Of a DNA stretch of 64,000 nucleotides, positions 9,136 to 58,689 are shown in pieces. Made by a program: the position numbers and the translations under genes. The first letter of the stretch is position 1, and the number at the start of each line of letters is the position of its first letter. Source of the stretch: Girardinichthys multiradiatus (Eukaryota; Chordata; Actinopteri; Cyprinodontiformes; Goodeidae); NCBI RefSeq assembly GCF_021462225.1, contig NC_061798.1, forward strand, positions 22,962,820 through 23,026,819, read 5' to 3'. Under the pieces are notes generated by a model. The model was given only the letters and a program-made list of their open reading frames with translations, had not been told where the DNA came from and did no database searches.

Positions 9136-9373
9136 ATGGATCTCATCATCAAGCCGAGAGCAAAGTCATTCGTCTGGCTTTACTTTGGCTATAAAGCTGG
9201 CGAAAATGGCCGACCTTTGAATCCCGACGAAGTCGTCTGCCGTTTATGCCGAAAGATTGTGTGCGCGAAGGGAAACACCACGAATTTAAGGAGTCATCTG
9301 AGGCGTCGACATCCCGCTGAGTTTAACGAGAGCATTGGCTCCACGACCCCTGGATCTTCCTCGGAGCCTCAAG
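9136..9373 (+). CDS. BED/PR/hAT gene, exon 1: BED zinc finger 1
   Basis: The exon encodes 79 codons plus one base. The BED finger has the spacing VCRLC ... HLRRRH after an aromatic WLYF block. The ATG at 9136 has A at -3 and G at +4; the upstream in-frame ATG at 8950 is an alternative. The donor AAG|GTAATA lies at 9373/9374 and leaves phase 1, which matches the acceptor at 17919. Confidence 0.85.
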
Positions 9374-12300
9374 GTAATATTACGCTAAACCTACTTGATA
9401 AGTCCGGCATGCAACATTAGCTGCAATTCTGCCCTGGATTTCGGTGTGTTGGAAGTCGCAAATAAGTTAAACGGATGAATGCCGTCTTTAAAGCGGATAC
9501 ATGAATTCAGAATGCTCATTGTAACACTGAAACAAATCCCACGCAAACGTAGATGAAGCCAGCTGGACGACGCTATGCGTCTTTAATTCCTACAAGATTA
9601 AACGGCATGTCTGTTACCTGCTGAGAAGGTGGCCACCGTGTGTAGATATTGGGGTTTGCGTTTTCTCCTTAATGCATCATCTAGTATGCCGCATTATTTT
9701 TTTGTTAGCCAATAAATATACATTGTCACCTTTTTTTAAATATTCTGTTACGCCTGCGCACCTGTGTTACGTCTGTGTAGAATGTGTCTCGTGCCCAGTT
9801 GCTATGGTGTCACCTAAACAGCTGTTCACGTGCAGCACAATCAAAAAAACTTTGGGCAAACTTTTATTGTTATGGTTTTAGACGGAGAACGCCGTATTCC
9901 TCACTATTAACATCTTATTAACCACCGCTCATATTTCATAAATTTGTCTCAAGTTTTTTAAGTGTTTATATTTAAATGCTACGTTCAAATACCTCGGACT
10001 GGAGCTCCGATCTGGAAATGACATCATAGCCGAGTGGCAGCAGGGCCGAACCCGTTCGTTCGATTTATCCCGGAAGTATGAGTTCTGAATCGCGTCACAC
10101 ATGAGTTCAGAGGTTCTAGTTGCAGGTTGGCAAATTCAATTCAGTTTATTTATATAGCGCCAATTCATAACACATGTTGCCTCAAGGCACTTCACAAAAG
10201 TCAGGTACATACATTCCAATTAATCCTGTCTAAGGAAACCCAGCAGATTGCATCCAGTCAGACTTGCAGCATTCCCTCCTCCTGGATGAGCATGTAGAGA
10301 CAGTGGACAGTCACTGGCGTTGACTTTGCAGCAATCCCTCATACTGAGCATGCATGTAGCGACAGTGGAGAGGAAAAACTCCCTTTTAACAGGAAGAAAC
10401 CTCCAGCAGAACCAGGCTCAGTGTGAGAGGCCATCTGCCACGACCGACTGGGGGTTTGAGAGAACAGAGCAGAGACACAAAAAGAACACAGAAGCACTGA
10501 TCCAGAAGTACTTTCTATGGGAAGGAAAAGTAAATGTTAATGGATGTAGCTCCTTTAGTCGTTTCATCTAGAAAGAAAGAACAGATAAACTCTGAGCCAG
10601 TTTTCAAGGTTACAGTCTGAAAGAGAGCACATAATTAGTCACAGTAAAAGCTCAAAGTCAATTGCCATGTCTAGGAGAGAGAAAGGGTTAAACATTGAAA
10701 GACAGGGCCAAGTGGATCATCTGTAGAGGGTGAGCATTAAGTTGTTGCCGGCAGAAGCTTGGATGATGCCCCTCTCCAGAAAGGTGTCACAGGTAGACAC
10801 AGAGTCAGGCCAGGTGTAGCTTCTAGGAAGAGAAAAGAGAGAACAAAGTTAAAAGCTGAAATAACAGGAAATAATGCAAAATTGGAGAGTAGTGTGAGAA
10901 TGTAGTGAAGAGGGTGAAAGTGGTCATTATGTCCTCCAGCAGCCTAAGCCTATAGCAGCATAACTACAGAGATAGCTCAGGATAACCTAAGCTACTCTAA
11001 CTATAGCTTTATCAAAATGGAAAGTTTTAAGCTTAGCCTTAAAAGTAGACAGGGTGTCTGCCTCATGGAGTAAAACTGGGAGCTGGTTCCACAGGAGAGG
11101 AGCCTGATAACTAAAGGATCTGCCTCCCATTCTACTTCTAGAGACTCTAGGAACCACCAGTAAACCTGCAGTCTGAGAACAAAGTGCTCTGTTAGGAACA
11201 TATGGAACAATCAGATCTCTGATGTATGATGGAGCTAAATCATTAAGGGCTTTATATGTGAGGAGGAGAATTTTAAATTCTATTCTGGATTTAACAGGGA
11301 ACCAATGAAGGGAAGCTAAAATAGGAGAAATATGATCTCTCTTTTTAATTTTCATCAGATCTCTTGCTGCAGCATTTTGAATCAGCTGAAGGCTTTTAAC
11401 TGCATTTTGTGGACATCCTGATAGTAACGAATTACAATAGTCCAGCCTTGAAGTAACAATGCACGGACTAGTTTTTCAGCGTCGCTCCTGGATAGGATAT
11501 TTCTAATTTTGGCAATGTTCTGGAGGTGAAAGAAGGAAATCCTAGAAACCTGTTTTAATATGGATTTTAAATGACATGTCCTGGTCAAAAATAACACCAA
11601 GGTTTTTTACTTTATTACCGGAGGTGAATTTAGTGCCATCCAGGTTAAGTGATTCCCTAAGCAGTTTTTTTTAAAAGACTCTGGTCCAAAGACGACAACT
11701 TCTGTCTTGTCTGAATTTAGAAGCCATCCAAGTTTTTATATCTTCAAGACATGCTTGTAGTCTATCTAACTGATTGGGCTCATCAGGATTTATGGATAAG
11801 TAAAGCTGAGTATCATCAGCGTAACAGTGAAAATGTATCCTATGCTGCCTGATAATTTTACCTATTGGAAGTATATATATAGATAGATCTGTCATTAGTA
11901 AAGAGAGAATAGAATTGGTCCAAATACTGGACCCTGTGGTACTCCATAATTAACCATGGAGTTTAAAGATTTTTCATTTACATGAACAAACTGGAATCTG
12001 TCAGACAGATAAGATTTAAACCAGCCTAGCGCTGTTCCCCTGATCCCTACAGCATATTCCAGTCTTTCTAAGAGAATATTATGGTCGACTGTATCAAATG
12101 CAGCACTGAGATCTAACAGAACCAGTACAGACACAAGTCCATTATCTGAAGCCATAAGAATATCATTAGTGACTTTCAGCACAGCTGTTTCAGTGCTAAG
12201 ATGAGCTCTGAAGCCTGACTGAAACTCTTCAAACAGGTCCTTGCTGTGTAAATGCTCACACATTTGATTAACAACTATTTTCTCAAGAATTTTAGATAAG

Positions 12301-15300
12301 AATGGAAGATTGGATATAGGTCTGTAATTTTTCAAGTCATCTCGATCAAGCGAAAGTTTCTTAAGTAAAGGTTTAATTACAGCTAACTTAAAAGCCTGCG
12401 GTACATATCCATTTACTAAAGATAGATTAATCATATCTAAAATGGGGCTGTTAATCAGAGGGAACACTTCCTTAAATAATTTGGTTGGGATTGGGTCTAA
12501 CATACAAGTTGAAGGTTTAGATGAAGCTAATATTTCTGATAACTCAGGAAGCTCCACAGGATCAAAGCAGTCCAAACACAAATCAGGTTCTACAGTTACT
12601 TCTAATGTTGTCTCAAATAAGACCCACAATATATGGTGAATATATCATCATCGCAATATCAGTGTGTGCTATCTCCATATGCCAAGGTTTTGAGTGCAAT
12701 TGTTGTTTAATATATGTAATGAACTTGCTTTTTTCATGCCAATGTAATATTTAGCCAGTTGGACAGAGTGTTACGGTACCAGATAGTCACACAGGACACA
12801 CACAGTCCTGTCATCTACAGAAATACCCAGACAACTCTGCAGTCATAAGGTGGATAAGAGCTGGACAAGAAGCTGAGTACAGGGAGCTGGTGGACCACTG
12901 TGTGGCATGGTGTGGAAACAATAATCTCCTCTTGAATAAAACAAAGGAGATGATTGTAAATTTTAAGAGAAACAGGAACAGGTCAAACTCTATTTCCATC
13001 ATGGGAGAAGAGGTGGGGGAGGAGTATAAATACCTTTTGTGTTGTGTTCACCTGGACAACAGACTGGTGTGGAGATGACACTGTGAAGCCGTCTACAAGA
13101 AGGGACAGAGCACACTGTACTTCTTGGGGAAGCTTAGGTCCTTCAGTGTTTCCAGCAAGATGCTGCATATCTTCTATAAGTCTGTTGTGGAGAGTGTGAT
13201 CTCTTCTGCCATCATCTGCTGGGGTAGCCGCATCAGAGCCAGGGACTTAAAGCTCAATAAGCTGATAAAGAAGGCTGGCTCTGTTCTGGAGACTCCTCTT
13301 GAACCTCTGGAGATCATTGTGCAAAGAAGCATTCTTGATTAAAATGAAGAACATCATGGAGAACCCTGAGCATCTTCTTCATGTGACTGTTGTACAGCAA
13401 CAGTGTCTTCAGTCAGAGGCTTCTTCAGATCTGCTGTAAGACGGACCACTACAGGAGATCCTTCCTGCCCACAGCCATCAGCATCTACAACGGTTCTAAC
13501 CAGTGGGTTGCCTGTTCGAACCCCTGCTTTGTCTGTCTCAGTTATGTCCATGGGCAAGATACTTCACCCTCCTTGCCTGCTGATGGTGGTCAGAGGGCCC
13601 AGTGGTGCCGATTGTATGGCAATCTCACCTCTGTCAGGCTATCCCAGGGCAGCTGTGGCTATAATGTAGACTCCCACTGTCCGTGTGACAATGTGTGCAT
13701 GAATGGGTGAATGATGGATTGTAGTGTAAAGCGCTTTGGAGTCCTTGGACTTGATAAAGCGCTGTATAAGTGCAGGCCATTTTACCAATAGTTTAGATCA
13801 CCCACATTCACACCATTATTCTGTATATGTGCAGCAGTCATATTGGATAATAAACTCTGGGAAGTTTGGTGCATTCGCACTTTCCTATTCAAAAGTCAGA
13901 CTTCAACGGACATTCTTGTTGTATTTCGGCCAGGATCTAAGAAAATCTGACTTCCAAATAATAACAGAATGCATCACATGTGTTTATATTTGTCCTCTGG
14001 AGTCAGAATCTCAGAGTTCCAAGTTAAAAAATCAGATTGAATGCCCCCGTAAGTTGGAATTTCTAATAGAAAAATTAAAGGTCCTCTAATAAATGGTTTA
14101 TTTAAGCCACATTCACTATTTTTCACATGTGTCGCAGCCATATTGGCCCTCCGACGTTCCCTGCCAGTACTTCTGCGTTTGATTAGACTCGGAGGTAGAG
14201 TCCAGATTCAGTAGTGTTTTGTCCATTTTGTCTTGAAACTGGGATCTGGGAATTATGTCACACCCCAAGTTAAAAAAAGTCAGTAGGATTAGTTGATTGT
14301 TGTGGTGCTAATGGTGCGTTGCATTTGCCAATTTGTTCCAAATCAAAAAAATCAAATAATAAAACCCTTTTTAAGTGACTTTTTTTTTCCTCTGAACTCT
14401 GAGTACAAATTTGATGAACCATTACTAGCGCACATCATTTAAAACAATCAACATACTGTATGTTCAATTTGGGAACCGTTTCTACATGCTTACATCTTAA
14501 CTCTTGTTAGCTTTTGCATTTAAAGCAAAACAATTTTCAACAGTCAAAACTTTAAAAAGGAGAATTTCTTTGAACATTTATATTCCTTTGTGGCCAAAGT
14601 AATGGTTCAAAATGAATTTTTAGTATGTTAAACGGTAATCAACTCAGTTCATGCTGGTATAACATGCTGTAACTCTATGCGTTACATTAACGCTCAGCTT
14701 GGACTCCTGCTTTACTTGCACTGCCATACTTGCACAATGATCATCTGCACTGTTGTATTGCTCTTGCATCTTATACTGCTCTATACTTACTCTCACTCAC
14801 TTAAAACTGTGCACATATATTTATATTATATTGTAGATATGTTTATACTGTTTAATTTGTATTGTATTGCACCGACTACGCCAAAACAAATTCCTTGTAT
14901 GTCCAAAAACGTACTTGGCAATAAAGCTTTTCTGATTCTGATTCTGATAACCCAACTTTGAAAGAAATCTCAGTTTCAGTAGAAGTCAAACCCAACATGC
15001 AGCATATTATTTTCTCTTGATAGACCGAAGGTAGAAAACGGCCTTGTATCAGCTGATCTCAACATTCAGGTCGATGTATCTGCATTACAGTTGATGGGGT
15101 ATTGAAGAGCAGATGAATTTGAAGCAAGGTCAGCAATGAGATGGCAAAAAATCTGGAGGTGTCAGGTATGGACAGTGTCCAACTTGGCAGTAGAAGGACT
15201 GTAGTAAGCATGATTTATAAAATGAACAAAATGCTGGATCTGGCAACGGTCACCAGTATGGATTTTTTAAAAACATCTGAACGGAGCCATTGTGGGATTT

Positions 15301-18300
15301 GCATTTCATGGAGTATTGACCTGGATGGTGACTAGATTTGGACTTCTGTCACATTTTCTTTGAATTTTGTTCTAAAGCTCCCTTCCAAACTGACCACTTT
15401 TTTCTTGCAGCCTACAAGGAAACCAACACATGAACTGTAATGTATACAGATCCGAACAAACGTAAACATACTGGGCTAAGTGCTGGCCTACAAGTGCAAA
15501 GATGCTGAAGCACCCATAAGCTTTGCTGTAACAGGACCTCTGCCACTCACCTGGAACAAGGCTGGAAGTGGGAAGAAAGCACCTATCAGGATAAATAATG
15601 TTATGTAAAATTATTGAATTATCTTTCAGTTTACCTCATTTTGTTTGGCAGCACTTTCACCTAGGTGGTTTGAAATGTGTTTTTATAAATGAAAAGCAGA
15701 GAAATAACTAGGGGTGGACCGACTGCAGTTTTCTGGCAGATCACAGATTTTTAAAAGTCCTGACCTGCCGGTTCCAATTTTGGCCAATACTGCAATTTTA
15801 TTTATAAGTGACATTGTCAGGAGTTATAGGTCACAATTATACCTTCAATGTTCCAATCTTTTTTTATTGAAAAACACTGAAGAATACCCTTGAAACAATA
15901 CAAACCTGTTTTAACTGCTCGTACTCTCAAATATAAATGAAAAGTTTAGAGTTGTGCCGTTCCTTTAGTCTTTCATTTTTCACAATTTAAAAAAAACAAA
16001 CAAGACTTGCACAACAGGTTAGACAAGTAGATAAAATTGGTCGATAAGATCGGTTTCACATGTAAGTATTGGCTGATCACCCAAAATTAAGGAAACCGGG
16101 GGCGATCGGTTAGAAATAACCAGAAAATAATTCTAGAAGATCGACCATTTCACATACAGGTCCTTCTCAAAATATTAGCATATTGTGATAAAGTTAATTA
16201 TTTTCCATAATGTCATGATGAAAATTTAACATTCATATATTTTAGATTCGTTGCACACTAACTGAAATATTTCAGGTCTTTTATTGTCTTAATACGGATG
16301 ATTGTGGCATACAGCTCATGAAAACCCAAAATTCCTATCTCACAAAATTAGCATATTTCATCCGACCAATAAAAGAAAAGTGTTTTTAATACAAAAAACG
16401 TCAACCTTCAAATAATCATGTACAGTTATGCACTCAATACTTGGTCGGAAATCCTTTTGCAGAAATGACTGCTTTAATGCGGCGTGGCATGGAGGCAATC
16501 AGCCTGTGGCACTGCTGAGGTCTTATGGAGGCCCAGGATGCTTCGATAGCGACCTTTAGCTCATCCAGAGTGTTGGGTCTTGAGTCTCTCAACGTTCTCT
16601 TCACAATATCCCACAGATTCTCTATGGGGTTCAGGTCAGGAGAGTTGGCAGGCCAATTGAGCACAGTGATACCATGGTCAGTAAACCATTTACCAGTGGT
16701 TTTGGCACTGTGAGCAGGTGCCAGGTCGTGCTAAAAAATGAAATCTTCATCTCCATAAAGCTTTTCAGCAGATGGAAGCATGAAGTGCTCCAAAATCTCC
16801 TGATAGCTAGCTGCATTGACCCTGCCCTTGATAAAACACAGTGGACCAACACCAGCAGCTGACACGGCACCCCAGACCATCACTGACTGTGGGTACTTGA
16901 CACTGGACTTCTGGCATTTTGGCATTTCCTTCTCCCCAGTCTTCCTCCAGACTCTGGCACCTTGATTTCCGAATGACATGCAGAATTTGCTTTCATCCGA
17001 AAAAAGTACTTTGGACCACTGAGCAACAGTCCAGTGCTGCTTCTCTGTAGCCCAGGTCAGGCGCTTCTGCCGCTGTTTCTGGTTCAAAAGTGGCTTGACC
17101 TGGGGAATGCGGCACCTGTAGCCCATTTCCTGCACACGCCTGTGCACGGTGGCTCTGGATGTTTCTACTCCAGACTCAGTCCACTGCTTCCGCAGGTCCC
17201 CTAAGGTCTGGAATCGGCCCTTCTCCACAATCTTCCTCAGGGTCCGGTCACCTCTTCTCGTTGTGTAGTGTTTTCTGCCACACTTTTTCCTTCCCACAGA
17301 CTTCCCACTGAGGTGCCTTGATACAGCACTCTGGGAACAGCCTATTCGTTCAGAAATTTCTTTCTGTGTCTTACCCTCTTGCTTGAAGGTGTCAATAGTG
17401 GCCTTCTAGACAGCAGTCAGGTCAGCAGTCTTACCCATGATTGGGGTTTTGAGTGATGAACCAGGCTGGGAGTTTTAAAGGCCTCAGGAATCTTTTGCAG
17501 GTGTTTAGAGTTAACTCGTTGATTCAGATGATTAGGGTTTAGAGACCCTTTTAATGATATGCTAATTTTGTGAGATAGGAATTTTGGGTTTTCATGAGCT
17601 GTATGCCAAAATCATCCGTATTAAGACAATAAAAGACCTGAAATATTTCAGTTAGTGTGCAATGAATCTAAAATATATGAATGTTAAATTTTCATCATTA
17701 CATTATGGAAAATAATGAACTTTATCACAATATGCTAATATTTTGAGAAGGACCTGTATACATAAGATGCTGTATTTGTTTTGTACTGTTGCTGCAAAAA
17801 ATATCTGCAAAATGTTGTGTATCTATGTAATATTCTAGATTTTTCTTCTTACATTCCTTGTCTCTTTCATCTCCCATCTGCATTTATAATGAATGATTTT
17901 GCTGTTGTATTTTCTCCAGGTCTGGAACTCAGTCACGAAGAGCTCAATGAGGATGTACCGCTCCTCCAGACCCCCTCAAACTCCAATTACGTCCCAGATG
18001 CGGTGGTGCCGCCGGGCGAGCCGTGGCTCCACGGCGGCCCCTCCAGGGCTGTGCTGTCCCTGCCTGCCTGTCTCTCCCTCCGTACAAATGGTGCGTCCTC
18101 TGTCGAAGAACAGGGGGAGATGAAGGTGTATGCTAAGTGTCAACTTCAGCAAGGGGTCCTGTTTGGGCCCTTTTTGGGAGAGGTGTGCAAGGGACAAATG
18201 CTGAGCAACCTCAGATATGCCTGGGCTGTAAGTTGACAGACACCCACAAGAATCTATTGAAAAGGAGCATTTTTTTTTTTAAGTTTAGAAAACAAGTTTT

Positions 18301-21300
18301 CTAGTTGTTGACAAGTAATTGTGGTTATTTGTAATTATAAAAATAATATTTCTAACAGAAGAAAATTTTTTAGGTGTTGCATAAATGTCATAAATATTCC
18401 AGCACGATTATTTAATTTTCTCAGTTTTGACCTACATATTATTATTAATTTTAACCCTCAATTAAACATTTATAATTTGTCACATCAAACCTTATTTAAA
18501 AGTTAGACAAAATATGTGCTTGAGAAAATATTTTGACACATTTTGTTAAAAAATGCCTCTAGATCCGAGATGATTCTGCCTTCACCTATGTTGATGCATC
18601 TGATGAGAACAAATCTAACTGGATGAGGTGAGGTATTAATATAGCGTCACTGTTTTATCCTGAAGGATCTTCCTCTGGCAGAAAACATGATTTACTGTAG
18701 ACGTTTGCTCTGTATTTTCAGATATGTATCATATACAAGCAACGAGGACGAACACAACTTGGTGGTTTTCCAGTTTTACCGTCACATATACTACAAGGTT
18801 TGCCAGTCCATCTCAGAGGGGGCAGAGCTCAAAGTCTGGATTGGGAAGGATTATGCCTCGCTATTGGGTCTGGGGATGAGTGAGTTCTACTCCATTGGGT
18901 TTATGTGCTGTAGTGGATGATCTGATTTATGTGGGCAACTCATAAAATTTGAATGTTATCAAAAAGTTAATTTATTTCAGTATTTTAAAGATTCATATAT
19001 TTTGATGCCAGTATTTTCTACATGTGTTACACACGCATCAATGTATTTTAAGTGTTTATTTCTGTTAACTGTGCTGTTCAGTCTTGTGAGGGGTCCCGAG
19101 GGTTCAGTTTTAGGCCCCTTCCTCTTCACACTCGCCCTGCTTCCTCTCGACTCTGTTTAGAAAACATGGGATCTCCTTTTATTGTTACACGGATGATACC
19201 CAGATACAGGTCCTTCTCAAAATATTAGCATATTGTGATAAAGTTCATTATTTTCCATAATGTAATGATGAAAATTTAACATTCATATATTTTAGATTAA
19301 TTGCACACTAACTGAAATATTTCAGGTCTTTTATTGTCTTAATATGGATGATTTTGGCATACAGCTCATGAAAACCCAAAATTCCTATCTCACAAAATTA
19401 GCATATCATTAAAAGGGTCTCTAAACGAGCTATGAACCTAATCATCTGAATCAACCAGTTAACTCTAAACACCTGCAAAAGATTCCTGAGGCCTTTAAAA
19501 CTCTCAGCCTGGTTCATCATGTTGTGGAATTTTCTTATCAAAGTGGGTAGAAGTTGACTCATAACAAGAGAAAATCCGGACTTTGTCTTATAAGTTTTAT
19601 TCAAAGGCATTCAGCGTTTGAAGACCCTGACACTGAGGTTAGTCAGTGAAACAGAGCCCCGATCAACATTTACACACAGTATTTATACCAGAACATGACA
19701 GTGTTATCTCAACTGCAAAGAGTTTTAGAAATATGGCCCCTAGACCCTCCCCGGGTCAGAGTTAACAAAGTTATTTATGAGGGCACCCATCTACCTTCCC
19801 TTGAAATATACACTTCAGGAAGTGTTAACCATAAAACTCTCCAGCATTTGAATTTAGAGTCCATCTGCTCTAAATAACAGAACACTAATAAAACACAGAG
19901 GTCAGAGGTGAGAGGTAGATGGAAGGTCACCTGTGGGTGATAAAAGACAGAATCAAATGAGAGAGGTGAAGGGAATATCAGAGCACTTTGAAATAATTTT
20001 CCATTACACTCCTTTCTTCTGATTACAAGATAATCACATAACTAAAAGAAAATTCTACAAAACCATCACCCAAGGAAAAATGACCTCCACCAACCGGTTA
20101 TCTGGAAAGAAAGTAGCTAGAGCATAAGTAGCATCAATAGGAACTGGTACCAAAAATGGTTGATCATTAATAGCACGTGAAATCAAACAACAAACATAAC
20201 AACAATCATTTCTTATCTTCCTCACGGTTTGATGCATCAGTTGCCACCAGACATTATCAGCATGATCATAGTAGTCAGAAAAGTGATGGATCTCTCTTCG
20301 AATCAGCTGATGAGTATTATTAACACAATTCCTCAAATTAGCCCTACATTGTCTTTGCTGCACCTTTTCCCAAATGAACACAAGAGTTATAAAAATACTT
20401 GAAATACCAATCATTAGCATCAGAACAGACAATCTTCCATTTAACTGCATCGTGACCTTGAAGTGGAATGTCCTTTCTTCTGGTACAGAAAGAAAACAGT
20501 TTTTTTTCTCAAAGAAAACAAATTATAAACAACTTTAAAAAAAACAAAAATCCTGCTGCCTCTCCTGAGTGGCTTCTGCGCTTCAAGCTGCCCTGTTACC
20601 AGTCTGGTACAGGTGGGCGGTCGTTGGAAGCTCCTCTAGAAATATATTTAGAAACAGGAACTCTAACCTGCTGGAAGTCAGGCTTCCATAGTCCAACTTA
20701 TGATTTCTAACTTTCAGGCAATGCGATGGCCTTAAGTAGATTCTGAAATAACATTGCACTGCCCAAGGGATTATTGTGCCCTTGTAAGAACAGTGTTCTT
20801 CAACCACCTGTTCAATCACTCGCCAGTGATCAGCTTACAGTTCTTTATCTTATGGTGGTCCGCTGTCCTCACACCTTTCAGGCCGTGGATGATCCAGTTG
20901 GAAGATGACTTGTGTCCTGGAAGCCAGATGAAGCTGGAGGAGCTGGAGCTTTCCTGCAGCTTTCCTGCAGCTTTCCTGGGTGTCTAGTAGGATCTGATAT
21001 GGGCCATTCCAGCGCCTGGACTTCCTGTGTTTTCTCCTAGATTCTCTGACCAGAATCCAGTTGCCAGGAATAAAGGACTGGAGGGTGGAAGTGGCTGTTT
21101 CTGGTAATGCAGCCTTCACCATCTGTGAAACTTGAGAAAACACAGTGGACAGGTTTTGACAGTAAAACAATATCCTATCTTCACACAAAGATGTGGAAGA
21201 AAATTATCTTGGCAATATCCCCATGTCCAAATTAGGAGACCTGCTACACAGCACTTCAAAAGGACTGAGATTTGCCTGTGTCCTTTGTCTCAATCTCATA

Positions 21301-33300: not shown

Positions 33301-36300
33301 ATTTTTTTTTAGCAGAGCAGTTTGCTAAACATTTGCCTGCATTGATTAACTTAAACAACTCTGAAATGTATAAATAGTAAGGGAGTAAGGTGAGCTAGTT
33401 TGTAAACTATGGGTAAAGTTGGGAATAGACTTTCTGACCGAGCAGGCGGTGGATGTTTTCATGTAAATGGGGGGGCCTTCCATTGAGTAGCGATCCCCAG
33501 TCACCAGGCATCGTTACCGTATCGGTTTAAATGTGAAAGGAACCTGTCCCTAGTATATAGTGTACAGCACATGGAGATACTTTTCAGTAGGCTGAAATTG
33601 CATTTATAATTTAACATTTTAAACATAACTGTGGATTTTCATAAGCTGTAAGGCAAAATTAACAGAAATAAACACTTCAATTAAAATATATACCTGTGTG
33701 TAATGTGGACACATTACGCACAGTTTTAATGTTTTGGAATAGAAATGCAGAACAAAATTGACCATTTTTGACCATGTTCTAATTGAGATGCCCCTGTACT
33801 GTTCTGTAGGTTTTAAAACACCCCGGTTTAAACTTTGTTTTATTGGCATGTACAGGTGATAATGCAAAATGTGAAATCGGAGACAAGGAAACAGCCCTGC
33901 GCCTCCTGCAGGACATCCAGCTGGTCACCCTCCCAGAGCCAAGCAGCACATCGCTTTGGTCTGACAGCAGCCAATCACAGAGCCCCATGCCTGTCATCGG
34001 TGAGGTGACGACCGTGTCCAACCCAGAACCAGCTAACGATCCAGGCTCAGTACCCAGCTCTGCCTTCCCCCCCGCCATTCAGAGCTCATTTATTTACACC
34101 AGCTCCAGTGTGACTGACAAATATGATTTCTTGCCTGGGAGTGAGAAGCTGCTAAGCAATCCAAACGCTCACCAGCACAGCGCCTGGCAGTTTTTTGGCT
34201 TGGAGCCAGACCCCACCGGTCGGCCTCTGGATCGAAACATGGCGGTGTGTAAGTTGTGCATGGAGCGCGTGAGCTGTGGAGGAGGAGCAACAGATCTCCA
34301 GAACCATTTGACTACCAAACATCACCTCAAACCTCGAGACATCACCAAGGATCGCATCCTGGCGGCAGGTAAGACGAGGACATGGTCAGGATAAGATTGA
34401 TGCCTAAAGAGGTTGAGGCCTGTTTACAACACCATTTCTGTCAGTTATGACAAACCTTTAATCAAAAACTGAAATTCTTTTATATTGTATATTTAAAACA
34501 TAGTCCGGAAAATGAGACAAAAGCAAATCATCTGTCATTTCATTATAAACTGGTCAAAAAATGAAAGGCTTTGAAAATACATCAGATCTCATTGAACAAA
34601 GAATGATGCTGGATATCCTCCATGCTCTCCTTGGCAGAGCTGTCAGTTTAGGTGGATGACCCTCGTTAATCTTCAGTGCTTCTTGAGATGTTCAAGCTTC
34701 TCCAACACTTTCTCCCTGACCTGTTTGCTGTGTTCTTTGGTGTCAGTGAGGCCATTTGTTCACTATCAAAACCTCTGAGGCCTCAACAGAAACGTTGTAT
34801 TTACATAAAGATTTTATCTAGGGATGCTCTATGCCACACTTCATACTTCAGATGTTTTCTTTGTTAAAATTTCAACAACAAAAAAACTTGTATTATTTTC
34901 CTTCCGCCTAACAATTAGCCATGACTTTGTTTTGTGTCACAATTAAATCCCTTTGAAAAATCTAAGTTTGAAATAAGATGACAAAGTATTCCAAAGACAC
35001 TCTATTGATAGGTTATCTGAGAGACGTTTTTGTGATTCAGGCATTTCAACAGAGGTTTAGTCACATTGTGTTTTGTTTTCTTGGACAGGTCAACGTATTG
35101 TCCCTGTGATGACACCCAGCGGCGTTCACAGCAGCCCCCCTGCAGCAACATCTGCTCAAGTGACAAATGCCATCACCAGTTTCCTCATCAGGGATCTCCA
35201 GTCCCCAGCTCTGGTAGAAGGAGAAGGGTTCAAACAACTCCTGCATACACTCCTGCCCTCCTACAAGGAGCCGCTGACATCCCAGCAGCTGCAGAACCTC
35301 CTGAGAGACCACTACATTAAAGCCAAGATAAACCTTGTTCAGATGTTGAGGAACAAAACCGCGGGTGTGGACATTGAGGAGATAACAGACTACACCGCTC
35401 CCATTGAGTTCGAGCCCAGGAGACGAGGGCGACCTCGAAACCACCAGAAGGCAGTTTCTCACTTTGTCACCTTGAGTGTAGATGTTTGGCTCCACAGCTG
35501 GCAGGGCAGCAGCCAGCATTACCTGACCCTCTGGGCACATTACATAGGTGACGATGATTTCAGTCCTCACAACCTGGCACTGGCAACCCAAAGGCTGGAG
35601 GAGAGTGGAGCTAAAGGCTTAAACCTCCAGGCAGTGGAGATGCAGGTAAAGGCGATGGCGCAGGAGTGGGGGATCAACCAGCCAAACCTGGTGTTGTTGG
35701 GACTAGAGGGCCAACACAGGATAAGGCTGAGGCCCATAAAGACAGAGAAGGGCGTGGAGGCTACAGGGAGTGCCCCACACCCTAATTCAACAACTTTTTT
35801 AGAGAAGGATGACTCCGCCTCGCCTGAGGAAACACAGGCCTCCTCGGAGCATTTTAGCGAGGGTCTTCCATCCGTCCCGTGTTTTTTCAGCGCCGTTCAG
35901 GGCTGCATTGAGGAGGTGATGTTACACTCAGTGATCTTTAAAACTCTCAGCCAGTTCCAGAGTGCTCTCTCCACCCTGCTGCTGCCTCCTGCTCAGAAGA
36001 GAGGCTTGTACCACCACCATGCTCGGAAGCTGCTGCATGGCATGACCAAAGCAGAGCAGGAAAGAATAAAGTCGTGGGCTCACAGCCAGCCCACCTGGAA
36101 TTCACTTTATCCTTTACTGAACTCACTTATCAAACACAAAAGCCTAATCTGTGATATAGTAAAAGACATTAATGAAGAAAGCATGGCCAGAGACGAGACG
36201 GCTGCAGAGTCATTAGGCAGCTACCACGCAAACTCAACCTCAAGCATGTCATCGGTGTGCCTCCCGACTTTGCACTCTGAGTGGAAGGTGGTGGAGGAGC

Positions 36301-38240
36301 TCTGCTTGGTCCTCAAACCTCTGGATGTGGCCTGTAGAACTTTGGCCAAAGAAGCCTTCCCGCGTCTGTCCCTCGTCAAACCCATTCTCACAGGCTTGCT
36401 CTCACGCCACCTCGTACCCCGGCCGGGCGATTCCTCGTCCATCCTAAAGGAGGTAAAGAGGATGATGAGGCGGAACCTGGCGAGCTGCTACGTCAGCCCA
36501 GCGGTGGACAGGGTTCTGTGCGTGGCATGTTCCCTCGACCCCCAGTTTCATGGGCTGGGCTTCATGGAGGAGAAGGTGAGCTTTGATTTAAAAAAAACAA
36601 AAAAAACTTTTCCTAATACATTTTTTCCTTCCACTCAACTTTCCATTGAAATATTTGGATGGATCATTCTATGAAAAGCCAGCTTCTTTAGCAGTGATCT
36701 TTTGTGCCTTAAACTCCTTGTGAATGGTCAGCAGGTGGTAGTCTTCTCCAATGTAGTTTGGGTCATAACATCTGTTTAGAAATTAGTTGGTTTTTTTTGT
36801 TGTTGTCTGATATGATATTCAAATTTTCAGAGGGTTTTTATTTGCAGGAAGCCATATTCATTAAAATGATTAGGAAAATAATCCTGAAATCTATAGCTCT
36901 GTGTGTGATGAGTTCATACAGTAAGCAAGTTTCCCTTTTTGAACAGAATTACTGCAATAAATAAACTTTTCAGTGACATTTTCATTTATTGAGGTTCTAC
37001 TGTGCTTGTTACTTTATAGTTCCTGGCAATAAGTTTTTTTTTTTTTTACTATTGAAATCAAAACCTCCATTTAAAAAAAAAAAAATTTAATTTGAATATG
37101 ATTGCAAAGACATTGATAAATATCATGGCATCATAATGGGGAAACAAATCGTTGCTGGTGTACTGCAGAGGTTTGTTTATTCATACTGCCTATTAAAAAG
37201 ATTAAAAAGCCTCTTTTTATGTTCTGCAAAAAAGAACATTTGAAACACTACAGAAAGTACCTAAATAGATAGATAAGCTAGTATTTGCAAAAAAAAAGTC
37301 ATATTTAAAAAAGATAAGATTTTACAACATGGTTATGAAATAAAAAGAGAATCCAACTTTATTTGTGTTCTGTGAAAAAATTGCTAAACTGAATTAGGCA
37401 GATTTTTAAAAACAAACATACTTTACCGTGGTCAAAGGTTTTCCTGCCAGCCAAAAAATAACTTAAAACAGCTCTAGTCTGGATCAGCAGGCATTGATCT
37501 CTTACATCAGATCTGAGATGTGTTCCAGTAATGCTGGAGCTCTGCCTGATTTTAGCCTGGATGTGTTTCAGTAGTTTTGCAAAAGGATAATGAGCTGTTT
37601 TATCCTTGTGTTGTAGCAGCAGATGGCCACATTCAACTGGCTGAAGAAGGAGGCTGTGAGGATAGCGAAGGAGGACAGGAAAAGGAGTAAAGGCAATCAA
37701 GAGAAGAGAAGCTCCCCTCCTGTGTCCCCAGAGTCAGACAGCGAAATCCTCCGGAGGAGCAAACGCTTAAAGGAGTGCCCCCCGATCAACTTCAGAGAAA
37801 TTATCATGGAAGATGAATGCAGCGACGCCGGAGAAAACGATGACGGCGAACCGTCGGACCCTGCTTCTCAGGCTGGGCTCTCTGGCATGGAGTTTCTGTT
37901 GGGGGACCTGTTCTGCTCCACTACAAGGAGCAGGCAGAGCTCCGTCGAGGAGTCTGTCGACATGGAGATGTCAGTCTTCAGAGCCGACAGAGGGGCTTCG
38001 CTGGGAGTGGAGCCACTACAGTGGTGGAGGACCAAGGCAGCTCAGTTTCCTCTGCTAGCCTCGGTGGCGCGGGTTTACATGGCTGCTCCAGCTATGGCGG
38101 GAAACGCCGCCCGGGACTTTGTGCAGGAAGGACCCGTCACCACAAACAGGAAGAGGTCCACCATTCCCCCTGAAAGTTTGGATGCTATTCTGTTTCTACA
38201 CCACAACCACATTTCCACCTCTGAGGGCGGGCAGGAGTGA
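9136..38240 (+). CDS. BED - PR/SET - BED - hAT domain gene (seven coding exons), transposase-derived
   Basis: Joined exons are 9136-9373, 17920-18227, 18563-18627, 18722-18879, 33856-34368, 35089-36575 and 37623-38240. They total 3387 nt, or 1128 aa plus stop, with every junction in frame. Order: BED finger 1 (Cys35, Cys38, His54, His59), PR/SET domain (about 115-256), BED finger 2 (Cys388, Cys391, His407, His412), an [10 protein letters not shown]-hook-like motif near 538-545, an RNase H-like hAT region starting with SVDVW, and a C-terminal hAT dimerisation block with [24 protein letters not shown] and hAT domains bind DNA and dimerise, and PR/SET domains methylate histones or recruit partners. 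A nuclear chromatin or transcription role is inferred. An in-frame upstream ATG at 8950 would add 62 residues. The usual hAT SERxFS block is replaced by NAARDF, so transposition activity is unlikely. I do not recognise a standard gene name. Confidence 0.85.
9374..10133. other. Start of intron 1, no further gene seen
   Basis: Intronic sequence without a convincing exon. Short open frames here show no domain. Confidence 0.5.
10134..12629 (-). mobile_element. LINE L2-type retrotransposon, 5'-truncated and decayed
   Basis: On the minus strand, ORF2 fragments read from 12629 to about 10990 in three pieces. The reverse transcriptase has [44 protein letters not shown] and, after a frameshift near 11895, the catalytic [13 protein letters not shown]-terminal piece reads [21 protein letters not shown] and LLWNQLP (11355 to 10987). 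A long untranslated region then ends in the typical L2 tail, GGCGCTATATAAATAAACTG followed by AATTGAAT, at 10134-10175. The element is in intron 1 and antisense to the gene. Frameshifts make it inactive. Confidence 0.85.
12640..12870. repeat. Interspersed repeat shared with 29850-29930
   Basis: A 29-base stretch at 12741-12769 is identical to 29870-29898, and the flanks are alike (GAACTTGC upstream of both). The first part, with ATATATCATCATCGCAATAT, belongs to a family of teleost repeats built on CGATAT motifs. The element type is not known to me. Confidence 0.5.
12880..13490 (+). mobile_element. LINE reverse transcriptase C-terminal fossil
   Basis: Plus-strand fragments read [22 protein letters not shown], then [20 protein letters not shown] and [19 protein letters not shown]. 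These are the region after the catalytic block in Rex1/jockey-like fish LINEs. One in-frame stop (TGA near 13076) and later frame changes break it. The clade is uncertain. Confidence 0.65.
13494..13788 (+). mobile_element. SINE with B-box and GCGCTGTATAAG tail
   Basis: It starts with a B-box-like TGTTCGAACCCC at 13513-13526. A conserved body follows with GTCAGAGGGCCCAGTGGTGCC and GGGCAGCTGTGGCTATAATG. It ends with AAAGCGCTTTGGAGTCCTTG and GATAAAGCGCTGTATAAGTG. This is a common teleost SINE family; a decayed relative is at 50915-51090. Confidence 0.7.
13789..14669. other. Intron 1, no gene recognised
   Basis: The open frame at 13736-14089 starts inside the SINE and has no known domain. The sequence otherwise looks like unremarkable intron. 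Confidence 0.5.
14670..14950 (+). mobile_element. LINE 3' end with GATTCT tail
   Basis: The sequence TTGGCAATAAAGCTTTTCTG followed by ATTCTGATTCTGAT is a well-known teleost LINE 3' terminus. The upstream part, with repeated CTTGCACTG-like words, is its untranslated region. No coding part remains. Confidence 0.6.
14951..16154. other. Intron 1, no gene recognised
   Basis: AT-rich sequence. The part near 15715-16140 (GGGGTGGACCGA ... GGTCGATAAGATCGG) looks like an old interspersed repeat, but I cannot name it. Confidence 0.4.
16157..17756 (-). mobile_element. Tc1-like transposon, copy b (complete ends)
   Basis: A 1600-bp element of the same family as copy a, in the opposite orientation. TA flanks it at 16155-16156 and 17757-17758, with long inverted repeats at both ends. 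It lies in intron 1, only about 160 bp before the exon 2 acceptor. Confidence 0.9.
16434..17438 (-). pseudogene. Tc1 transposase, two nonsense codons
   Basis: The frame runs from ATG 17438-17436 to TGA 16436-16434, 334 codons, without frameshift. Stops are TAG at codon 11 (17408-17406) and TAG at codon 236 (16733-16731, at the Gln of the QHDLAPAH block). The catalytic motif neighbourhoods FSDESKF and [15 protein letters not shown] are intact. Only two base changes separate it from an open frame. Confidence 0.9.
17920..18227 (+). CDS. BED/PR/hAT gene, exon 2: start of PR/SET domain
   Basis: The acceptor TTTCTCCAG at 17911-17919 and donor GCT|GTAAGT at 18227/18228 define the exon. Phase 1 in and phase 0 out keep the frame. 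It encodes an acidic linker ([14 protein letters not shown]) and the first strands of the PR/SET fold ([12 protein letters not shown]). Confidence 0.85.
18228..18562. other. Intron 2
   Basis: AT-rich intron of 335 bp. It has GTAAGT at the start and a CTCTAG acceptor at the end. Confidence 0.75.
18563..18627 (+). CDS. BED/PR/hAT gene, exon 3: PR/SET core
   Basis: This 65-nt exon encodes [14 protein letters not shown], the conserved PR/SET core found as DxxxxxxxNWMRYV in PRDM proteins. The acceptor is CTCTAG and the donor ATGAG|GTGAGG. The split arginine codon is completed in exon 4. Confidence 0.85.
18722..18879 (+). CDS. BED/PR/hAT gene, exon 4: end of PR/SET domain
   Basis: The exon completes NWMRYV and then encodes [18 protein letters not shown] and [17 protein letters not shown]. 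In active PRDM9-type enzymes the corresponding motif is VWYG; here it is VWIG, so a tyrosine near the active site is replaced by isoleucine. The donor is ATGA|GTGAGT at 18879/18880, phase 1. Confidence 0.85.
18935..19010. mobile_element. Decayed Tc1-type terminal repeat
   Basis: TTATTTCAGTATTTTAAAGA with ATTCATATATTTT resembles the inner terminal repeat of a second Tc1 group also seen near 33615-33797 and 36795-37005. It is too decayed to bound well. Confidence 0.3.
19085..19204 (+). mobile_element. L2-type reverse transcriptase scrap
   Basis: The sequence translates, with breaks, to a [24 protein letters not shown] block and a CYTDDTQ-like catalytic motif. It is cut at 19204 by Tc1 copy c. 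Confidence 0.6.
19520..20008 (-). repeat. 3' LTR of the provirus
   Basis: 489 bp, with TG...CA ends on both strands (TGTTGTGG ... ATTACA on the plus strand). On the sense (minus) strand it carries TATAAATA at 19687-19680 and AATAAA at 19601-19596. The 60-codon plus-strand open frame inside is probably chance. Confidence 0.9.
20009..20021 (-). promoter_or_regulatory. Polypurine tract
   Basis: On the minus strand AGAAGAAAGGAG lies directly against the 3' LTR. This is where plus-strand DNA synthesis is primed in retroviruses. Confidence 0.8.
20055..20450 (-). pseudogene. Retroviral envelope, N-terminal fragment
   Basis: A 131-codon frame starts with a hydrophobic segment at about residues 8-26 (signal or membrane anchor). 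An ectodomain-like stretch follows, with [14 protein letters not shown] and a Cys-rich DCCYVCC, which recalls the CWVC-type region of fish retroviral surface proteins. The frame ends 47 bp before the 3' LTR, so the rest of the surface subunit and the whole fusion subunit are missing. Assignment to env rests on position and weak motif similarity. It cannot act as an entry protein in this form. Confidence 0.55.
20850..21420 (-). pseudogene. Retroviral integrase, C-terminal fragment
   Basis: The frame from 21188 to 20850 includes [11 protein letters not shown] and [11 protein letters not shown], the SH3-like DNA-binding tail of gamma-type integrases. The same frame reads back to about 21330 with [14 protein letters not shown] and [13 protein letters not shown], broken by a TAA at 21206-21204. 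Further back, up to about 21420, an NGTL-like block with another stop is visible. The catalytic DDE core is not recognisable. Near 20949-20981 an 11-bp unit CTTTCCTGCAG is repeated almost three times in tandem. Confidence 0.75.
21430..26500 (-). other. Provirus interior without recognisable coding
   Basis: About 5 kb of AT-rich sequence sits where gag and most of pol should be. Both strands are dense in stops and I find no Gag, protease or reverse transcriptase motif. Short frames at 25180-25825 show no domain. The 5' leader side (26040-26500) contains a GC-richer part near the LTR. Either the coding region decayed in a mobilised lineage or it was replaced by other sequence. Confidence 0.6.
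23140..23215 (-). repeat. LINE 3' tail inside the provirus
   Basis: ACTTTATTGATCCCCGAGGG preceded by AATTCAAATTCAAAG is a widespread teleost LINE 3' end, here in minus orientation. It suggests that the provirus interior has taken up other repeats. Confidence 0.6.
26515..26537 (-). promoter_or_regulatory. Candidate primer binding site
   Basis: Just inside the 5' LTR the minus strand reads ATTT then TAGCGTCACGAACAGG, the position of the tRNA primer site. The usual TGG start appears as TAG, and I could not match the site to a tRNA. Confidence 0.4.
26538..27026 (-). repeat. 5' LTR of the provirus
   Basis: 489 bp, read as identical to the LTR at 19520-20008 at a constant offset of 7018. TATAAATA lies at 26705-26698 on the sense strand. 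It is followed on the right by the target duplicate ATCA and the rest of Tc1 copy c. Confidence 0.9.
27046..28042 (+). pseudogene. Tc1 transposase with frameshift and nonsense codon (copy c)
   Basis: The frame opens at ATG 27046 with the usual [18 protein letters not shown]. An 8-bp deletion near 27560 (compare CCAAAATG in copy a) shifts the frame. TAG at 27743-27745 replaces the Gln codon of the QHDLAPAH block, as in copy b. The SPDLN block reads NHIE instead of NPIE. The retrovirus lies 16 bp upstream of the start codon, within the untranslated leader. Confidence 0.9.
28307..29810 (+). mobile_element. Tc1-like transposon of a second family, right end damaged
   Basis: The left end starts CAGTACAGACCAAACGTTTG directly after the TA (28305-28306) that ends copy c. 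The right inverted repeat (CTCTTTGAATGAGAAGGTG, to 29810) then departs from the expected terminus. Inner repeat blocks such as CACTGAAGGCATCAAAACTA recur inverted at 29738-29757. Confidence 0.8.
28722..29673 (+). pseudogene. Tc1 transposase, second family, broken
   Basis: ATG 28722 opens [20 protein letters not shown] with the first helix-turn-helix. The coding then jumps frame near 28855, where about 90 bp seem lost, continues in another frame ([45 protein letters not shown]) to a stop at 29280, and goes on in fragments with [10 protein letters not shown] and [12 protein letters not shown] blocks to TAA 29671. No functional protein is expected. Confidence 0.85.
29850..30080. repeat. Interspersed repeat shared with 12640-12870
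   Basis: It contains the 29-base block identical to 12741-12769 and a later TATCGCAACTGATATCGCC motif of the same CGATAT-rich repeat family. Confidence 0.5.
30120..30555 (+). pseudogene. Tc1 transposase fossil
   Basis: Scattered fragments read [13 protein letters not shown], [14 protein letters not shown] and ITVLD near the motif position of copy a, and then an ending like the TPQQSHGLI region. Many stops and shifts are present. This is an older relative of the Tc1 families nearby. Confidence 0.5.
30587..31118 (+). mobile_element. hAT remnant encoding a BED finger
   Basis: The frame 30729-31040 encodes 103 residues with a BED finger: an EVWLHFSK aromatic block, CNICKAKC, and a HLVKH pair. 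ZBED1-like hAT transposases begin in this way. GGTAC-rich ends (GGGATAGGTACCG at the left, CTGGTACCG at 31118) look like terminal repeats. The catalytic part is absent. It lies in intron 4 of the BED/PR gene, same strand. Confidence 0.6.
31119..31514. other. Intron 4, partial hAT end and unassigned sequence
   Basis: CAGGGGTGCCGCCAGGGATT at 31123-31142 resembles one end of another hAT family, but no matching right end was found. The rest is unassigned. Confidence 0.4.
31517..32910 (-). mobile_element. Tc1-like transposon, copy d, internally deleted
   Basis: 1394 bp with both long inverted repeats and TA at 31515-31516 and 32911-32912. Relative to copy b, 217 bp are missing (equivalent to 17008-17224), joining AAAAAAGT directly to CCACAATC. 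Copy e has the same junction. Confidence 0.9.
31795..32582 (-). pseudogene. Tc1 transposase with internal deletion (copy d)
   Basis: ATG 32582 opens the N-terminal DNA-binding part. The 217-bp deletion removes the second helix-turn-helix and linker and shifts the frame, so translation runs out at 32241. The catalytic part stays open in its own frame from 32340 to 31795, with [15 protein letters not shown] intact. Confidence 0.85.
32913..33613. other. Intron 4, no gene recognised
   Basis: AT-rich. It contains the perfect inverted repeat at 33114-33170, noted separately. Confidence 0.5.
33114..33170. repeat. Perfect 17-bp inverted repeat
   Basis: AATTGTTCTGAAATAAA at 33114-33130 is matched by its exact complement at 33154-33170, with a 23-base T-rich spacer. 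It could be the core of a small MITE or a hairpin. Confidence 0.75.
33615..33797. mobile_element. Tc1-type MITE or terminal repeat
   Basis: GATTTTCATAAGCTGTAAGG, GAAATAAACACTTCAATT and the end TAATTGAGATGCCCCTGTA form the typical end of a Tc1-group element. The left end is not clear. It stops about 60 bp before the exon 5 acceptor. Confidence 0.5.
33856..34368 (+). CDS. BED/PR/hAT gene, exon 5: linker and BED zinc finger 2
   Basis: The acceptor GTACAG lies at 33850-33855 and the donor GGCAG|GTAAGA at 34368/34369. A Ser/Pro-rich linker of about 110 residues is followed by BED finger 2: [20 protein letters not shown]. It aligns with finger 1 through FG...GRPL...VC.LC...V...G..T.L..HL...H, so the two fingers are probably duplicates. 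Phase 1 on both sides. Confidence 0.85.
34369..35088. other. Intron 5
   Basis: 720 bp of AT-rich intron ending in TTCTTGGACAG. No element recognised. Confidence 0.7.
35089..36575 (+). CDS. BED/PR/hAT gene, exon 6: hAT transposase-like region
   Basis: A single large exon of 1487 nt encodes residues about 428-923. An [10 protein letters not shown]-hook-like motif precedes SVDVWLHSW, the position of the first catalytic Asp of hAT enzymes. The second Asp motif (usually TDNA/TDNG) reads LLGLEGQ and lacks it. An insertion domain and the conserved [19 protein letters not shown] and [13 protein letters not shown] blocks follow. The frame is fully open and GC-rich at third positions, which supports selection. 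The donor is GAGAAG|GTGAGC. Confidence 0.9.
36576..37622. other. Intron 6 with a Tc1-type end
   Basis: About 1 kb, AT-rich, with T and A runs at 37036-37084. It contains the Tc1-type repeat at 36795-37005. It ends in the tandem acceptor TAGCAGCAG. Confidence 0.7.
36795..37005. mobile_element. Tc1-type MITE or terminal repeat
   Basis: CTCTGTGTGTGATGAGTTCA, TTTTTGAACAGAATTACTGC and TTCATTTATTGAGGTTCTAC match, with changes, the 3' end of the Tc1 group also seen at 33615-33797. Confidence 0.45.
37623..38240 (+). CDS. BED/PR/hAT gene, exon 7: hAT dimerisation domain and stop
   Basis: Starting after the last of three tandem acceptors, the exon encodes [12 protein letters not shown], a basic RRSKRLKE stretch that could be a nuclear signal, an acidic region, and the C-terminal hAT block [21 protein letters not shown] with [14 protein letters not shown]. 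The SERxFS motif that supplies the last catalytic Glu in hAT enzymes is replaced by NAARDF. TGA is at 38238-38240. Confidence 0.9.
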   Translation: MATFNWLKKEAVRIAKEDRKRSKGNQEKRSSPPVSPESDSEILRRSKRLKECPPINFREIIMEDECSDAGENDDGEPSDPASQAGLSGMEFLLGDLFCSTTRSRQSSVEESVDMEMSVFRADRGASLGVEPLQWWRTKAAQFPLLASVARVYMAAPAMAGNAARDFVQEGPVTTNRKRSTIPPESLDAILFLHHNHISTSEGGQE

Positions 38241-39189: not shown

Positions 39190-40391
39190 AGTTCTGGTCA
39201 GAAGTTTATAAGAGCTAATATGTTCCTTTCAGGCTTTTAATGATGCATTTAAACTGTTTTTGCCATTGGTATGATGATATGCAACATCAATGAATTTCAA
39301 AAAACAGGGATTGGGTGAACAAGTCTGAATTTATTGATGGTTCTCTGTCACCTGCACAAGTTGGAGATTACACATCAAGGCTCAAATATATACATACATG
39401 CCCTCTGATGTTTGGTTAAATGTCTTCAAGCGAGTTGCGCCTCAACATCTTTGTAGTCATCAGCATAATCTGGCTCGACATTTGTTCGTTTTCTCAGAAA
39501 TGGTAGAGCTCAGTTAAATTGCTTGGTTTCTGGTACAAACCCAATTATAAATATTCAGTAGGGTTGAGTTGAAGGCCCTTCCAGCAGCTTATTGTTGACC
39601 TTTTTTCCATTACCAAAGTGGGCTGCATTTCAATTTATTGTCCTCCTTCACTCACCCAACCCAAACTGTTGCCTGAGATTAAAAGAAATTGCTTAGCAAC
39701 CAATGCAGGAACCTTTAAAACTCAAGCCGATTATAAATTAGAAGATGCTTGAACTCCAGTGATATTGTCCAAATTGAGGTTAGTTTAACATCAGCCGGAC
39801 TGGGAGATTGCCAACCAAGAATAAAGCACCTGCTCCAATCTAGGCACCTTCAAGCTATGCTAAGGTTTACCACTGCCCACATGGACAACTCAAAAATCTT
39901 TTCGAGAATGTTTTTATGATCCAAAGACAAATTGAGCCATTTGGGTACATCAACGAGAAGTATTTTTTTAAGTCACGGTGAGGCGTTTAAACCTAATACC
40001 AACTGTCAGCCATGGTGGTGGCAGCCTCATGCTAAGGGGTTGTTTCACTGCCACAAAATGGACCAAGAGATGCAGGAGGAGTACCTCCAAATTCTTCAAC
40101 GTCCCCTTAAATCAACAGCTTGTTTAAAATTTGGTGTTCCAGCAAGGCAATGATCCCAAACACACATTACAAATGCTTTAACAATGGGGGGTAAAGCTGG
40201 CTGACATTAAGCTCTTGGAAAGGCGACGACCTTAATCCCATTAAATATTTATAGCCTTTGTTTAAAAGGCAAGTACGCACCAACCAAATGATTTAAATGA
40301 GGTTTAACATTTCTGGTGGTTAAAAGTCCACCCAGAATTATGCCAAAAACTTTTTAATGGCTCCAAAACATGTCTTTAACATGTCAAAAAC
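39190..40391 (+). mobile_element. Tc1-like fossil of a third family
   Basis: Decayed transposase text includes CATGGTGGTGGCAGCCTCAT (HGGGSL) near 40010 and CAAGGCAATGATCCCAAACA (QGNDPKH) near 40143, the typical Tc1 motif pair. The leading part resembles the long untranslated region of such elements. It is cut at 40391 by copy e. Confidence 0.55.
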
Positions 40392-57870: not shown

Positions 57871-58672
57871 TTTTCAACATTAGTAGCCAGCTATTAAGGA
57901 ATATTAATATCTCAATTTAAAAAGTGACACTGAATGTTGAACCTACTTTCATATTGCTCCATTGATGCCAAAATCATTTGAACATGTTCAAACATCAAAC
58001 CTATAAAGTCACTAAATCATCAGAAAAAAACTAGCCTACTTGATGCTAGCATGTGCGCATGTCATCACTCCTGTAATAGCTCTTGTCTGTTTATATTTTT
58101 GCTTTGATTTTTTTCATGTGCTGTTTTAGGAAGTACCTCTGTCATGTAAAGCACTTTGAGTTTCTCTGAGCTTTGAAATGTTAAACTTTTCAGAGTTGAG
58201 AAGCATTAGACTATTTTGTTGGGATGCTAGCAGCGGCTTTCTCAGCTATTTAGCTATTTAAGGATTTAAACATTAAATTTAACATAATATCTGTTGTTCT
58301 TTGTTCATAAGTTTGGTTAGTAAAAACATTTAGAAATATCTGTAGCAAAAGGTAAACTTTTTTATATGAGAGCAGTTGGAAAGGTTAAATAATTTGACAT
58401 TCCTATGATGTGGTTTAGTTTTGCTTTGTAGAATACAAATTACGATAATTTAATCCAAAGTCCTTGTATGAAGCATTTACCTGGGGTTATCCCTTCACAC
58501 TTATTTAGGTACACTCCTTGAAGAAGCTGATTCATCGTCAGATTTCAGGGCATCCTAGACATTATTTATTTTGCCACTTTGTGTTGTGTAATTAGTTATC
58601 GTACAGCAGACATTTTGTATGTTTAAGGGAAAACAAATAAAATGCCAAACACAATTCCATTTTACTGTATTT
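57871..58672. other. No gene recognised
   Basis: AT-rich. AAGCACTTTGAGTTTCTCTG near 58148 recalls a SINE tail but is isolated. Confidence 0.5.
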
Positions 58673-58689
58673 AAAAGGTATTTAGATTT

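Follow-up and report, generated by a model that had tools for sequence, protein, structure and literature searches.

Does a single gene of the fish Girardinichthys multiradiatus join a host PR/SET domain to the domains of a hAT transposase, and what would such a protein do? The question is raised by a locus at positions 9136 to 38,240 of a 64,000-nucleotide stretch of contig NC_061798.1 (the whole of this stretch is called the window below), which a sequence-only reading had described as an intact host gene of this kind. Our analysis favors an old host-transposase fusion gene, in which a PRDM9-like segment was joined to a domesticated hAT and the PR domain serves mainly as a docking surface, likely in a repressive role; we put the probability of this reading at roughly 0.7. 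It draws on the domain architecture and its spread, the single group formed by the PR domains, the uniform replacement of the residue at PRDM9 Tyr357, the loss of the second hAT aspartate, and the retention of the zinc ligands and the dimerisation domain, all of which can be read from the sequences themselves.

The gene covers 29 kb of the window on the + strand. Its seven exons join as proposed, with AG/GT at all junctions, phases of exactly 1, 0, 2, 1, 1 and 0, and one open frame throughout. Exon 1 (9136..9373; splicing, Pfam) encodes BED finger 1 with zinc ligands C35, C38, H54 and H59. The PR/SET domain is divided between exon 2 (17920..18227; splicing, Pfam), which holds a linker and its N-terminal part, exon 3 (18563..18627; splicing) with its middle part, and exon 4 (18722..18879; splicing, alignment) with its C-terminal part, including an Ile at the PRDM9 Tyr357 position. 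Exon 5 (33856..34368) encodes the post-PR segment, a linker and BED finger 2 (about 34149-34346; ligands C388, C391, H407 and H412), exon 6 (35089..36575) the hAT transposase-derived region, with an RNase H-like fold, a helical insertion and no second catalytic Asp, and exon 7 (37617..38240) a basic linker and the hAT C-terminal dimerisation domain (by Pfam about 38001-38207), ending in a stop codon at 38238-38240. The order BED, PR/SET, BED, hAT in one protein is borne out by splicing and by a Pfam scan with zf-BED (4.7e-18, two stretches), PRDM2_PR (PF21549; 4.4e-35) and Dimer_Tnp_hAT (2.8e-10), the kind of profile search that the earlier reading had suggested.

The length of 1128 codons given by that reading fits one of three options. 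Owing to a NAGNAG repeat at the exon 7 acceptor, the model has 1128, 1129 or 1130 residues: its first acceptor gives 1130, the second, used in the NCBI model, 1129, and the third 1128. The NCBI entry (P0001, "uncharacterized protein LOC124868314 isoform X2", G. multiradiatus) matches the entire model at 100% identity except at this acceptor, and begins 50 residues upstream of the 9136 start, at an in-frame ATG at 8986. Since exons 2-4 form a 531-nt cassette of phase 1-1, they could be skipped or re-joined without a break in the frame.

A search with the window protein found 149 homologues, the best 120 of which were listed; counts out of 120 refer to those. Named sources among the matches listed include Poecilia, Fundulus, Oryzias, flatfishes, gobies, cod, smelt, pike and salmon, and the annotations among them are mostly "uncharacterized" or "ZBED1-like". 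The name "E3 SUMO-protein ligase ZBED1-like", given by NCBI, probably just reflects the best hit. An orthologue of ZBED1 was rejected as a matter of name only, the window protein having a PR domain and two BED fingers. Chance joining of the exons is excluded because near-full-length homologues listed from other species (at least 98% query coverage) show 42% to 88% identity. Splicing and homologues together thus bear out an intact host gene with a host domain and a transposase in one conserved open frame.

A second search, with the PR domain of paddlefish as query and a length window of about 400-1300 residues, yielded 84 proteins, of which 73 were new. A length of about 860 residues, with PR, BED and hAT in a single chain, is common among them, and fusion proteins of this length come from sharks, rays, coelacanth, lungfish, sturgeon, frogs, axolotl, caecilian, squamates, turtles and tuatara (in the models from coelacanth, lungfish and sturgeon the N-terminus is incomplete); tarpon and eels have longer PR-BED-hAT proteins. 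Pfam recognized the PR, BED and hAT dimerisation domains in 9/9 scanned proteins of this search. An alignment of 30 rows that range from frog to Girardinichthys extends through the C-terminus. With profiles cut from this alignment, the order PR-BED-hAT-dimerisation domain was found in 110/120 listed homologues of the window protein and in 49/73 new proteins of the paddlefish-PR search; 20 of the other 24 new proteins have PR alone, PRDM9 proteins among them.

These counts, which come from several annotation sources, bear on the idea that predictors merged a PR gene with an adjacent ZBED gene, the two being joined by no more than occasional read-through. Short PR-only proteins of paddlefish, frog, turtle, snake and eel, found via alignment of PR pieces, would fit that idea, as would PR-less BED-hAT models in Oryzias. 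However, Anguilla has both short and full-length models (P0137, P0187), so the short ones look like fragments, and the full frame is carried by transcript-sized contigs. Among the matches listed, eight clusters from a source labeled "lgn", presumably assembled sequencing runs (P0004, P0047, P0053, P0060, P0092, P0094, P0098 and P0101), encode 986-1196 residues on contigs of 3.4-4.9 kb, which would be spliced transcripts since the gene covers 29 kb in the window. The same source seems to include genomic contigs too, because other rows, such as P0132, resemble unspliced exons. We consider a merger of two genes improbable.

How old is the fusion? Since PR-BED-hAT chains occur in sharks, amphibians, reptiles and non-teleost fishes, the gene is older than teleosts, and a fish-specific fusion was rejected on the strength of this wider spread. 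Judged by its distribution, it seems to date back to early jawed vertebrates. Such a date fits a passage of PMC10027918, citing Hayward et al., which places at least two hAT domestications behind vertebrate ZBED genes in early jawed vertebrates. In a tree of the hAT region, euteleosts, elopomorphs, sharks with rays, and sauropsids each fall on one side of a branch supported by at least 96/92 (amphibians, 69/79). Independent fusions in teleosts and in other vertebrates could account for the different euteleost N-terminus, for the deep order of this tree, and for a whole-length identity to the Xenopus row of 30-33% in ten euteleost rows versus 42-43% in eels and tarpon. Yet all 30 rows can be aligned over the full length of the post-PR segment, BED and hAT, and in eels and tarpon a teleost-type C-terminus goes together with the old zinc knuckle; that the fusion arose more than once is therefore hard to credit.

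No cyprinid, catfish, herring, mammal, bird or crocodile was found among the named, listed rows of three word-limited protein searches. Because only such rows were covered, the absence suggests, rather than establishes, loss in mammals and birds. The paddlefish-PR search easily misses distant relatives, since it listed no mammalian PRDM9 and just five percomorph fusion proteins, though the window-protein search lists many. A mammal or bird orthologue as close as those of turtle or frog should have appeared.

Whether the PR domain could still act as an enzyme was judged from conserved positions. From the 120 listed homologues, 67 near-full-length euteleost rows were hand-picked; nearly all contain BED finger 1 (BED1), and because they were chosen in this way they are unfit for estimating how frequent BED1 is. 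The NWMR core, Y341 and Y361 are kept in all 67, which at the Tyr357 position have Ile (61), Val (4) or Met (2). A wider set holds 166 PR+hAT proteins, which are clusters and isoforms and not independent species. There the Tyr357 position, readable in 156, is Ile in 145, Val in 9, Met in 2 and never Tyr; among the 160 proteins with a recognized PR motif, the Y341 position is Tyr in 159 (the other was not read), and the Y276 position is Tyr in 138/152 read (F 7, H 5, C 2). The PRDM9-type set of Tyr276, Tyr341 and Tyr357 is thus incomplete, with Y341 kept, Y276 mostly kept and Y357 replaced in 156/156.

When 49 PR domains were placed in an unrooted tree, a branch with 95/95 support set 27 family rows, including three short models from paddlefish, frog and turtle, apart from PRDM9, PRDM11, PRDM2 and invertebrate rows. 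The Tyr357 position follows the same division, with Ile or Val in 27/27 family rows and Tyr in 22/22 others (PRDM2 by eye). PRDM11 falls outside the fusion group, on a long branch represented by one row only, and a PRDM11 orthologue was rejected. Among solved PR domains, that of PRDM9 is the closest in sequence score and that of PRDM11 the next, and the best fold matches include PRDM11, PRDM1 and PRDM9; the N-terminal half of the domain, used alone as a query, had no match in the PDB. Most PRDM members carry a C2H2 zinc-finger array after the PR domain; in the window protein, Pfam found no match to C2H2, KRAB or SSXRD.

An active methyltransferase like PRDM9 was rejected for the loss of Tyr357. 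The domain might instead be a lysine methyltransferase of altered specificity, which would write marks such as H3K4 methylation at BED-bound sites in the manner of PRDM9, with fixed targets. Its retained Y341, mostly retained Y276, NWMR core and Y361 would suit this role, and relevant passages of PMC5519329 state that Y276, Y341 and Y357 are important for PRDM9 catalysis, that losing one need not abolish activity, and that PRDM7, having lost Y357 and H3K36 activity, apparently keeps H3K4 activity through compensatory changes. According to the same passages, a shared catalytic mechanism is unlikely for PRDM9 orthologues substituted in this way, and the replacement here extends to every readable protein. 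We regard continued methylation as unlikely and favor docking, for which the pairing of Prdm14 with Mtgr1, described in part of PMC4749557, offers an example of a PR domain that binds a co-repressor.

The hAT region has the traits of a domesticated hAT or ZBED-type protein, namely BED fingers with intact zinc ligands, a dimerisation domain and an RNase H-like fold. A structure model of modest quality predicts a near-complete hAT-like fold, RNase H-like with a helical insertion. When a profile of four non-teleost members is compared with Hermes, the first catalytic Asp aligns and the second does not; the first Asp position is D in 61 and E in 6 of the 67 euteleost rows. The near-complete fold and the dimerisation domain could also belong to a mobile hAT element that captured a PR domain and still transposes. 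But seven exons spread over 29 kb, trees that group by vertebrate class and the missing second Asp make a mobile element a very remote prospect.

Conservation is unevenly distributed along the protein. In the 67 rows, the mean modal frequency is 0.82-0.85 in BED1, the PR domain and the dimerisation domain, 0.76 in BED finger 2 (BED2), 0.72-0.81 in most of the hAT core, and 0.53-0.66 in linkers. The zinc ligands are kept in 66-67 of 67 rows for BED1 and in 67/67 for BED2.

The N-terminus has changed most. Because a BED finger precedes the PR domain in 82/120 listed homologues of the window protein and in 0/51 new PR+hAT proteins of the paddlefish-PR search, BED1 looks like a later, euteleost first exon. 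In the 30-row alignment it occupies the place of the PRDM-type zinc knuckle of other vertebrates, eels and tarpon included, and the window protein has BED1 there and no knuckle. The knuckle is visible by eye in most non-euteleost rows, with weak, sub-cut-off Pfam matches (0.0005-0.009) in 3/9 scanned; the labels of our own knuckle profile (KNK), which is contaminated by BED columns, were not used. BED1 and the old single BED keep a GNTTNLR core, and since euteleost BED2 has lost it, much of the DNA recognition in euteleosts has probably passed to BED1. In a comparison that lacks BED1 of the salmon and pike rows (the pattern missed them), BED1 of the window protein scores 130-136 against the old single BED of non-teleosts and eels and 123 against ZBED1, which hints at internal duplication as its source.

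Other N-terminal segments also occur. Precomputed matches to DUF3504 (PF12012), which we take to be Crypton-type, are present in 16/120 listed homologues; in Seriola dumerili the domain lies between BED1 and PR. Intron 1 of the window gene holds, at the place where DUF3504 occurs in some other fishes' models, a DUF3504 (Crypton recombinase-type) relic with two stops (15348..15524, +; tblastn 4.8e-6 and 1.5e-6), matched by two of three DUF3504-bearing queries and not by the third (P0078). The DUF3504-bearing models could be predictor merges. One Monopterus model (P0065) has Tc5-type or Brinker-type DNA-binding domains in place of BED1, and other BED-like fingers seen by eye replace it in P0105, P0112 and P0115 (pipefishes), P0057 and P0071; such replacements may be true exon capture or prediction error. 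Related fishes also show two kinds of BED1 first exon, KGGNTTNL and KGNTTNL (P0002 versus P0001). Models of Oryzias (P0061, P0119 and P0120) show both, PR-less ones joining the second kind to hAT; in the window only the KGN type was found.

On the fusion-gene reading, a PRDM9-like segment of zinc knuckle and PR/SET domain would have been joined in an early jawed vertebrate to a domesticated hAT with its BED finger, RNase H-like core and dimerisation domain. The resulting protein would no longer cut DNA. Its BED fingers would select specific DNA, its hAT domains would hold two or more chains together in a hAT-type dimer or higher oligomer, and its PR domain would recruit chromatin co-regulators, most likely repressive ones, rather than methylate; in euteleosts a new BED first exon would have replaced the knuckle. 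The function first proposed for the locus survives in part: DNA binding and dimerisation agree with the kept zinc ligands and dimerisation domain, whereas chromatin modification looks unlikely, the Tyr357 position being replaced. A fuller history, to which we give an even chance, has a PRDM-type gene about as old as jawed vertebrates, its Tyr357-disabled PR domain and domesticated hAT forming a dimeric chromatin regulator, kept in sharks, amphibians, reptiles and fishes and lost in mammals and birds, while teleosts keep swapping transposon-derived N-terminal exons (BED, Crypton DUF3504, Tc5-type).

Several points weigh against these conclusions. The PR tree has no root; the hAT tree departs from the species tree in its deep order, with sharks beside coelacanth and lungfish and a program warning of long branches meeting; the structure model reaches a mean predicted local distance difference test (pLDDT) of 55.9 and a predicted template modelling score (pTM) of 0.41; 38/120 listed homologues lack a BED before PR, their models being truncated, PR-less or begun by another first exon; and an origin of BED1 from the gene's own BED is weakly indicated.

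Elsewhere in the window, the proposed neighbor slc43a3 was recovered on the minus strand, where an open reading frame (ORF) at 43950-44333 matches equilibrative nucleobase transporter 1 (1.3e-25), presumably the SLC43A3 product; 52459-52722 (-) resembles its N-terminal exon by eye only. Intron 4, between the PR and BED2 exons, contains an ORF outside the gene model (30702-31037, +) that encodes a BED finger (2.3e-9) and is probably the remnant of another hAT. Tc1/mariner-type transposase copies are abundant in introns and flanks, two confirmed by Pfam (6864-7640, +; 47787-48467, +) and others seen by eye near 16434-17405 (-), 27010-28042 (+), 31795-32618 (-) and 40338-41098 (-). Retrotransposon pieces with reverse transcriptase and endonuclease ORFs, probably non-LTR, lie at 2638-4086 (-), 4167-5951 (+) and 11898-12644 (-). 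Long overlapping open frames on both strands at 58592-60007 were assigned no identity.

A PR/SET-hAT fusion gene is apparently undescribed. We found no description of a PR-BED-hAT gene among titles, abstract beginnings and partial listings of the open-licence PubMed Central (PMC) literature, nor in the available portions of PMC5519329, PMC2200798, PMC3606216, PMC11872487, PMC10027918 and PMC12062965. The gene adds a likely PRDM relative, missed by mammal-centred lists and hidden in databases under "ZBED1-like". It offers a test of what a PR domain does once its PRDM9-type active site is altered. It could also show whether hAT-like sites are still bound by a regulator that descends from a transposase and has been kept since early jawed vertebrates. 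Because Xenopus laevis (P0146) and medaka (P0061) carry the gene, it can be knocked out and its binding mapped.

Among known systems, PRDM9 and PRDM11 have the nearest PR domains by score and are among the best fold matches, and non-teleost fusion members with complete N-termini keep the PRDM-type zinc knuckle. Unlike them, the window protein has BED and hAT domains, no C2H2, KRAB or SSXRD match, and a Tyr357 position that in the family is I, V or M. To our knowledge, ZBED1 has no PR domain. ZBED genes (ZBED1, ZBED4, ZBED6 and others) share the BED fingers, hAT core, dimerisation domain and domesticated hAT origin, several having more than one BED finger according to PMC3606216; within its main text the words SET and PRDM are absent and ZBED1 is described with a single BED domain. 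The present gene differs from them in its PR domain. Fusion genes of tetrapods, including KRABINER, were reportedly described by Cosby et al. in 2021. They took the same route, joining DNA-binding transposase domains to host regulatory domains, as set out in part of PMC12062965. For fusions of a SET domain to a transposase, the standard example is SETMAR. Like SETMAR, whose name and fusion appear in a portion of PMC2200798, the gene combines a host SET-type domain and a domesticated DNA transposase in one protein. It would be a separate case, drawn from another superfamily (hAT instead of mariner), with a PRDM-type PR domain and a spread across jawed vertebrates far wider than that of SETMAR.
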